Assembly (NCBI GenBank): GCA_018389105.1
Contig: JACATO010000047.1
Location: 62,001-126,000, forward strand
Length of the DNA stretch: 64,000 nucleotides
DNA from: Nautilus pompilius
Taxonomy: Eukaryota; Mollusca; Cephalopoda; Nautilida; Nautilidae
Reading direction: 5' to 3'
This document shows, piece by piece, positions 3,788 to 8,240 of this stretch (the stretch's first letter is position 1; each line of letters starts with the position of its first letter). The position numbers and the translations under genes were made by a program. The notes beneath the pieces were generated by a model. It had not been told where the DNA came from. It searched no databases and worked only from the letters and a program-made list of their open reading frames with translations.

Positions 3788-4034
3788 TAACACTGGTCAA
3801 CAAGTATTTTTCCTCAAGCATATGTCAAGGTGTACTTAGTGTAGTTTTTAATGCTGATTTCAAACATACAATTAGTTTTTTGACATCCGTACAGTTTTCA
3901 AGATGAGAAAGTTTTTCGGTTTAAGCTCATGCATATATAGAAATTCAAATCAATGACGTGTATGCATGTATTTCATATTACATCATGGAAACATACCTTT
4001 AAAATAAACTACATTATTCATTGCTGCATAGTTC

Positions 4035-4165
4035 AGATGCAATATTTCATCATCTTAAATTAACAATCGAGTTTTGTCTGATGAAATAGGTATTTCAACA
4101 TCTCAAATTGTCCAGTCATAATTGGTCTGATGAAATATTTCATCATCTCAAATTCAATATAAGTA
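4035..4165. repeat. Three-fold subterminal repeat with palindromic core
   Basis: Three related blocks of roughly 45-50 bp occur in tandem upstream of the coding relic. Each has a GATGNAATA..TTTCAWCATCT core followed by an AAATT tail. The third contains a perfect 16-bp palindrome, GATGAAATATTTCATC, at 4129-4144. Subterminal repeats of this kind often bind a transposase or act as promoter elements; that role is inferred. Confidence 0.5.
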
Positions 4166-4199
4166 TAACCGTTTGTATCTATTTCCTTACTTGTTTTAC

Positions 4200-5344
4200 A
4201 GTGTTAACAATGTCAAGACAGTGTAGAATCCTCCTGATGTGTTTTGTTATGTCTGTGGACAATTTATTGTGAAAGCTCAAAAACGTACAACAACACCAGA
4301 TATCAAGAGATTTATAAGCTATACTTTGACTGTCCTCTTGGAGATCAGGAGAAGTTATGGGCACCACATTTTATCTGCTCAGCTTGCTCAAGTGGCTTAC
4401 GTGACTGGTTTAATAAGAGGAAGAAGTCCATGCCTTTTGCTATTCTAATGATATGGAGGGAGCCGAAAGACCATGATGGTATGGAACTTTTCATGCCGTT
4501 GCCTATGAAAGATACTCAAGGAAAATATGTGGAGATTTAAAAGTCATTGGAATGTTAATGGGAATGCAGTCAGGTTTCACAAAATACTGTTGTTTCTTGT
4601 GTCTATGGGATAGTCGGGCAACTGACAGACATTATTCGGAATCAAACTGACAGACAAGAACATCATTTCAGCCAGGACTGTCTAGCGTCAACAATACACC
4701 TCTTGTAGATCCATGTAATGTCCTATTGCTTCCTTTGCACATAAAGCTTGGACTGATGAAACAGTTTGTAAAGACACTAGGGAAGAGAAATGCCAGAGGG
4801 TTTGAGTATATTGTAGAAAAGTTTCCCAAAATCACATAGGAGAAGTTGAAAGAGGGTATCTTTGTCGGACCCCAAATTAGAGAAGTACTCAAAGATGTCA
4901 ACTTCAAGACAACACTGGATGAACTGGAACTGCCTTCCTGGAATGCTTTAAATTGGATCTGTGAGAATTTCTTGGGCAACAAGAAGGCAATGGACTACAA
5001 GGATGGCATCAAGAATCTTCTGAAATTTTACTCAGCAATGGGTTGTCGCATGTCACTGAAAGTTCACTTCTTGGACTCCCATCTGGATTTCTTCGCAGAT
5101 AACCCTGGAGCAGTGTCTGATGAACATGGTGAAAGATTTCACCAGAACATTAGTGGTATGGAGAAAACGGTACCAAGGCTTCTGGAATGACAGTATGCTG
5201 GCTGACTACTGCTGGACACTTTACCGTGATCAACCAGATCAGGAACACCACAGGAAATCCAAATCACAATGTTCTAACTCTGTTGTTCTAACTTTGTCTG
5301 TTTTGTCTGACCCATTTTTTGTGTATTCACTCTTTGTAGAATGA
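4200..5344 (+). pseudogene. Broken copy of a widespread, unnamed repeat-associated protein family
   Basis: Successive frames rebuild parts of one protein family that I recall as multicopy and annotated only as uncharacterised in several animal genomes. First segment: CYVCGQ (from about 4242, frame 3) then LGDQEKLWAPHFICSACSSG (from about 4340, frame 2), whose Cys/His spacing could bind zinc. Second segment: ICGDLKVIG..SGFTKYCCFLCLWDSR (4530-4630). Third segment (from 4846): GIFVGPQIREVLKD..LKVHFLDSHLDFFADN..SDEHGERFHQNISG. Lesions: an in-frame TAG at 4837-4839, a one-base shift near 5165 after which RYQGFWNDSMLADYCW continues in the next frame, and a frame change near 4300. The first and second segments abut with little sequence between them, whereas from memory relatives have a long middle region, so an internal deletion near 4500-4530 is likely. 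Biochemical function unknown. Confidence 0.65.
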
Positions 5345-5582
5345 TAGTGATGATTTTTAACTCAATAAACTCATTTACTTTCTAAAAATAATATGTCCTA
5401 TTTATTACGTTAATGATTTCATATATACAAATATGTAAATATTTGCATGTATCTACTGAAAAACTGATACGTGCTGCATACAAATGGAGTGAAATTTTGA
5501 AATCAGCATGAAAAATTAGTCTCAAAAAGTTGGTGTGCATTCATAATGAGTATAATACATTTAATTTTGTTGACCAGTGTAA

Positions 5583-7074: not shown

Positions 7075-8240
7075 ATGGACTCAGCTATTAAAAGAGGCCA
7101 TTCCGCGCGGTAGATTGCGGCCCAGCTTCACGTTCCAGTGCCAGCTGTATGCAAGACTCCGAGGAGGATGCGCGAAACTGATACTGCCGACAACAGCCGC
7201 CATCGAGGATGGAAGCTCAAATTCTTCAAAATTGTTGTTAGGAACCCTAGGTTACGTTCTCTACGTACAGCCGCCATTGAGAATGGAAGCTCAAATTCTT
7301 CAAAATTGTTGTTAGGAACCCTAGGTTACGTTCTCTACGTACAGCCGCCATTGAGGATGGAAGCTCAAATTCTTCAAAATTGTTGTTAGGAACCCTAGGT
7401 TACGTTCTCTACGTACAGCCGCCATTGAGAATGGAAGCTCAAATTCTTCAAAATTGTTGTTAGGGACCCTAGGTTACGTTCTCTACGTACAGCCGCCATC
7501 GAGGATGGAAGCTCAAATTCTTCAAAATTGTTGTTAGGGACCCTAGGTTACGTTCTCTACGTAATAGACGACCAGCTAATAAGGATGGTAAGAATGACCG
7601 GGTTGCAAATACGAGTGTTAACGTTTCTTTGAGAACAGTAGGATAAAGTGGCCTCATCAGTTATGTATGTAGCTTCCCAAAAATTTTGCTTAAGAGGGAC
7701 AACCAAACAACGAGGCTTGAATGGGCAGGAGAATTAAAGCTGTGGAATGACCAAACCTAGAAGAAGTTCTTGACAAATGAGTCCAAGTTTGAACTGTTTG
7801 GAAATAATCAACGACGCCTTGTTCGAAGGCAGACCGGTGAGCGTTATAACAATCATTGTACAACAGTTCAATACAAGCCAAGGGCTACATATCATCCATG
7901 AAATTCAAAGATTTGTATAAAATCGAAGGTATACTGACTACCGACAGCTAAAGGCAGGAGGGTTTTTTTAATCTATGATGCCATTCCATCAGGAAGACAC
8001 TTCATTGGGCGGGGATTCATCTTCTAACGTGATAACCGGATGATCTCGAGCCAAAAGACGCTGTGATGAAAAAACATTTTAAACGTAGAGAGGCTGATGA
8101 AGTACTCACAAAGATGCCTTATCTTTCACAAAACTTTTATACGAATATTTTTTAAGGCTGTATGGGGTTGTACGGCTACTGTGAAAGTCACAGTCAAACA
8201 TTAATAGCTTCTATGAGAACATTAGTCATGCTTTGTATAA
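7075..8240 (+). pseudogene. Tc1-like transposase relic with internal tandem expansion
   Basis: An in-frame start region at 7075 reads MDSAIKRGHSAR, a TAG (7111-7113), then IAAQLHVPVPAVCKTPRRM, a Tc1-type helix-turn-helix. After the 74-bp repeat array the catalytic part resumes: RLEWAGELKLWND (from about 7714), NESKFELFGNNQRRLVRR (from 7776) and GFIF.RDN (to about 8036), then a tail resembling FKRREADEVLTKMP (near 8085). Catalytic state: the first acidic position is changed (TNES, Asp to Asn at 7776-7778), while the Asp in RDN (8031-8033) remains. Multiple stops and frame changes make it dead. Clear terminal inverted repeats were not found. It is related to the second Tc1 relic at 49.7 kb, sharing the GNNQ and LHKIEG-like segments. 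Confidence 0.75.
7194..7563 (+). repeat. 74-bp minisatellite, five copies
   Basis: Five tandem units begin at 7194, 7268, 7342, 7416 and 7490, each 74 bp and starting CAGCCGCCAT. Only three sites vary: C/T after CAGCCGCCAT, G/A in GAGGATGG versus GAGAATGG, and A/G before ACCCTAGG. Because 74 is not a multiple of three, the reading frame rotates from unit to unit. The array sits inside a Tc1-like transposase relic, between its DNA-binding and catalytic halves. Confidence 0.95.

Follow-up and report, generated by a model that had tools for sequence, protein, structure and literature searches.

A probable Chapaev3 transposon family in Nautilus pompilius, with complete and internally deleted copies

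The Chapaev3 group of DNA transposons (Repbase), to which Merrow, Garfield and Conan belong, is marked in the description of PMC4079192 by CAC/GTG ends, a TWA target site duplication lying between A and T, and a transposase bearing C(2)C, LH and H(4)H motifs. The gene is reported there to occupy mostly one exon, with two exons each in Merrow and Garfield; Garfield_BM measures 2,289 bp and encodes a transposase of 556 amino acids (aa), and derivatives with internal deletions have amplified beside full copies (PMC4079192). Elsewhere the group is placed with Transib and RAG1 and is reported to carry an N-terminal 'Chapa' zinc finger (PMC4411706), and copies are listed in a fly (PMC3630058). The locus described here lies in a stretch of 64,000 nucleotides ('the window') from the genome of Nautilus pompilius (contig JACATO010000047.1, positions 62001-126000), where a 1,789-bp unit holds the remains of a protein gene between inverted ends. 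This unit is very probably a non-autonomous, internally deleted copy of a ~2.39-kb cut-and-paste Chapaev3 transposon (CMC/Transib clade). Chapaev3 itself is known, and the family is a fresh member of this already described group.

The unit occupies positions 3791-5579 of the window, and the TAA read on the sequence at 3788-3790 and again at 5580-5582 forms its left and right 3-bp target site duplications. Both the coordinates, exact to the single base, and the flanking TAA had been proposed in an earlier sequence-only reading. The perfect 12-bp inverted ends claimed there (CACTGGTCAACA) are present at 3791-3802 on the forward strand and 5568-5579 on the reverse strand; inspection of the sequence extends the perfect match to 13 bp (CACTGGTCAACAA, 3791-3803 forward and 5567-5579 reverse). 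The second inverted match that had been placed inside the ends is a 23-nt pair, 91% complementary, at 3842-3864 (forward) and 5496-5518 (reverse), spanning 52-74 bases from the left end of the element and 62-84 bases from the right. Its core, TGCTGATTTCAAA, begins at element base 62 on the left and 72 bases from the right end in this copy. Within the window the 12-mer shows no excess at up to two mismatches (3 found, 4.33 expected; the sole further match carries 2 mismatches), and the core, with one mismatch allowed, is found 2 times where 0.28 are expected, a number reached in 5 of 100 shuffles. Judged from the window alone, a chance origin of the inverted ends is not strongly excluded; it is excluded because the unit recurs as a genome-wide family.

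The genome searched was the 727.6-Mb assembly that holds the window. A DNA search for the 1.8-kb form, which scored 40 out of 1314 initial candidates, identified at least 40 copies including that in the window, in agreement with the multicopy nature supposed at the outset. The others are 92-96% identical to it. Thirty-seven of the 40 scored copies align unbroken from base 1-3 through base 1787-1789, and the 30 that were fetched (L001-L030) have the same ends save for scattered mismatches. The transposon family is real and has been recently active.

The gene and the ends belong together. The pieces of the window protein occupy three reading frames and the inner part is absent, as expected of the broken copy reported earlier. 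These pieces, joined with X, were used as a query and gave 2707 relatives at E <= 0.001. Among the 120 of these that were listed, most are ~550-566 aa, those that are named are called 'uncharacterized' or 'hypothetical protein', and none has a precomputed Pfam domain; four organisms are named (mantis shrimp, frog, pseudoscorpion and moth). The closest of the listed relatives, P0001 (554 aa), served as the query of a protein-only search of the genome, with 78 of 8204 candidates scored, 30 loci fetched (L031-L060) and three lower-scoring ones fetched later. The best of the scored candidates is 85% identical to P0001, and several are without inner stops. The 13-bp ends flank the gene on both sides, with at most two mismatches each, in all 30 loci from L031 to L060, at an end-to-end distance of 2,294-2,416 bp, and likewise in all three lower-scoring loci. 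The latter were considered as older sister copies and rejected as such, being 94-97% identical in DNA to L033 over long matches. Gene copies lacking these ends, which the sequence-only reading had named as evidence against its proposal, were absent from the 33 fetched protein-found loci. The full element is ~2.39 kb long with a 554-aa open reading frame (ORF) uninterrupted in genomic DNA, and where intact this gene is the longest ORF of the element. The identification of the multicopy 'uncharacterised' protein as the unit's own transposase is supported by these results, and the gene family is multicopy because its gene is the transposase of the unit.

Insertion sites were compared over 61 independent insertions, that is, 63 loci minus one each of the pairs L006/L007 and L058/L060. 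The flanks within each pair are at least 98% identical over 400 bases on each side, and for that reason the pairs count as duplicated loci, not separate insertions. An exact 3-bp duplication occurs in 44 of the 61 (23 TTA, 19 TAA, 1 ATA and 1 TCA), so that the predicted TAA or TTA duplications are found exactly in 42; in the remainder the two sides differ by one base (12), two (4) or three (1). For randomly paired positions in those flanks the rate of agreement is 2.2%. Where the duplication is exact, A precedes it in 40 cases and T follows it in 42, and the full A-TWA-T reading is seen in 36 of 44 against a 5-mer background of 0.7% per position. As to empty sites, suggested earlier as a further check, comparison of the 63 joined sites with the 63 loci plus the window identified a single paralogous one, in which the L016 insertion is matched by a repeat beside L005; the match is 76% identical over 550 columns, and the filled site has three extra bases between the duplication and the left end. 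At the right ends of L004, L012, L014 and L028 the last base is A for G (CCAGTA), and an intact TTA duplication adjoins the altered base in three of these four.

A predicted model of an intact relative has a layout of the RNase-H type and finds its best structural matches in Transib and RAG1, which bears out the comparison with RNase-H-fold transposases proposed from the sequence. In this model D254 lies on strand 249-255, D308 follows strand 304-307, and E504 is on helix 504-519. D254 and D308 are the predicted first two catalytic acids and E504 is most likely the third, with E507 as the alternative. The window copy retains the forward-strand codons equivalent to D308 (CGDLK, 4534-4536), E504 (5122-5124) and E507 (5131-5133). 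The SDEHGERFHQ region, earlier suggested as a catalytic core, most likely provides the third acid and adjoins the H(4)H motif, but it is not the whole core: D254 and D308 lie upstream, and D254 is deleted in the window copy. Also on the forward strand are the C(2)C motif (C327, C330; 4591-4602), the LH motif (L375, H376; 4735-4740) and the H(4)H motif itself (H485, H490; 5065-5082); the residues of all three motifs are kept in 73-74 of 74 relatives. Overall, the transposase would consist of an N-terminal Cys-pair domain, a DD-E core of RNase-H type that is interrupted by a long insertion, helical for the most part, and a short C-terminus. The N-terminal Cys pairs, of which 57/60 and 93/96 occur in all 74 relatives and 13/16 in 71 (with three gaps), are taken to bind zinc. 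This end shows weak similarity to zf-AD (ZAD), found at E <= 1 in 20 of the 74 relatives with a best value of 0.0014; in P0001 the region (residues 25-72) scores 10.4 bits, the cut-off being 28. A link between the ZAD domain and the transposase zinc domain is possible. Pfam matches among the 74 family members were no better than E 0.0014; for four members NCBIfam gave none at E <= 0.1, and the viral structure library gave none at E <= 0.001. In viral contigs no relatives were confirmed for P0002 or alignment A1, nor were any for A1 in prokaryote genome contigs. A sequence profile search of PDB returned two matches to Scarecrow-like protein 3, which were rejected as chance-level.

The consensus of the 1.8-kb class is identical to that of the 2,389-bp class except that it lacks 591 bp, element bases 687-1277. 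In the window copy this junction falls at 4472-4473, as placed by comparison of the class consensuses and read on the sequence, within a frameshifted and internally deleted gene remnant that runs on the forward strand from an ATG read at 4210 to approximately 5275. The loss keeps the frame and amounts to exactly 197 codons, for about residues 89-285. Since the predicted first catalytic Asp is lost with them, deletion copies cannot make the enzyme, and the window copy has additionally been frameshifted several times since. Of 30 deletion copies, 9 have the remaining 357-aa ORF open (L006 and L007 among them being one duplicated insertion), and the full ORF (at least 545 aa) is open in 11 of 33 full-length loci, a share that is biased because these loci were chosen by protein score. 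Copies are ~1.5% from the consensus, and a family this recent offers well-preserved ends and insertion sites for study. Set against the neutral expectation, the ratio of nonsynonymous to synonymous changes is 1.0-1.5 for deletion copies and 1.1-1.2 for full ones (29 copies of each class), with no sign of constraint after insertion in either. This pattern points to a burst of both classes not long ago, after which the copies decayed with no constraint visible. As an addition to this history, the deletion class could have been retained for a repressive effect of its 357-aa product on the transposase, comparable to that of KP in the P element. The exact loss of whole codons and the copies with an open frame would be compatible with such a role. 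However, one deletion in three is in frame by chance, and the ratios reveal no selection on the truncated ORF, which makes retention as a repressor improbable.

The assignment of the family to Chapaev3, a group not named in the earlier reading, is made by the published hallmarks of the group. Of the 63 loci, 52 have 5'-CAC...GTG-3' exactly at both tips; each of the remaining 11 departs from it at a single tip, in one or two bases out of three. With the A-TWA-T target, the sizes of element and protein, the uninterrupted ORF and the C(2)C, LH and H(4)H motifs, these ends make up the set of characters reported for Chapaev3, and the amplification of deletion derivatives beside full copies is a further likeness. 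The cysteine pairs at 13/16, 57/60 and 93/96 would, by description alone, fit the Chapa zinc finger (PMC4411706). The family differs from the described elements in its length of 2.39 kb, its ends (CACTGGTCAACAA) and, with respect to the two exons of Merrow and Garfield, its uninterrupted ORF (PMC4079192). It is very unlikely that the family belongs instead to EnSpm/CACTA, Transib, Harbinger or an unnamed sister group of Chapaev3. Although Transib and RAG1 head the structural comparison, with no Chapaev structure among the matches listed, identity to the Transib transposase (HzTransib) and to RAG1 is 10-14%, and the target site duplication is 3 bp here but 5 bp in Transib. PIF/Harbinger, which carries a second, Myb-like protein besides the transposase, was considered for the TWA duplications and dropped after the fold result. 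EnSpm, also of the CMC clade, is reported to share 3-bp duplications and CAC ends (PMC12730594); however, the ends here read CACTGG rather than CACTA. The possibility that the protein is a host gene taken up as cargo, with the transposase encoded elsewhere, has little beyond the small and broken state of the window copy and its weak, sub-threshold Pfam matches to recommend it, and was rejected as scarcely credible given a gene that lies within the ends at every one of the 30 loci, is the longest ORF of the intact element and is modelled with a transposase fold and conserved DD-E; of the two roles first offered for it, cargo or transposase, the second stands. Under the Chapaev3 assignment the modelled transposase would be a distant relative of RAG1, an enzyme of the human immune system, and its structural neighbourhood is consistent with the published grouping. 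A very large family of 'uncharacterized' animal proteins, for which protein-family libraries are without a model, is thereby indicated as Chapaev3 transposases, which call for repeat masking and should not be counted among the genes.

The anatomy of the copies and their relatives suggest how the element would move. Complete copies elsewhere in the genome would supply the transposase, which may bind both ends through the 13-bp CAC terminus and the inner box and cut the element out at the CAC terminus. The excised element would then be joined at A-TWA-T with duplication of TWA, and copies with the 591-bp deletion, which keep both ends, could be moved in trans. The two inner boxes are unequally placed. 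In 42 of the 61 independent copies the core TGCTGATTTCAAA starts at 62 bases on the gene-upstream side and at 72 bases on the opposite side, counted from the respective end, and the left-right difference is 9-11 in 54 of the 61. As all copies descend from one element, this spacing counts as a single observation. RAG signals are of two types, with spacers of 12 and 23 that differ by about one helical turn. A similar code in Chapaev3 ends, consisting of a CAC terminus and a conserved inner box at distances one helical turn apart, is a tempting but improbable reading. If so, the transposase would pair unlike ends as in the 12/23 rule, and this feature would predate RAG.

The untranslated leader of the unit contains direct repeats with a spacing of 48 and 45 bp (4043-4154, forward strand, found by a repeat search). 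Length differences among some full-length copies are close to this spacing (e.g. 2343 versus 2389) and may reflect variation in the number of repeat units. A search of the window for tRNA genes identified none. Downstream of the unit, positions 7193-7563 form a tandem array of five copies of a 74-bp unit with 97% matches, and repetitive overlapping ORFs at 7115-7389 lie partly inside it.
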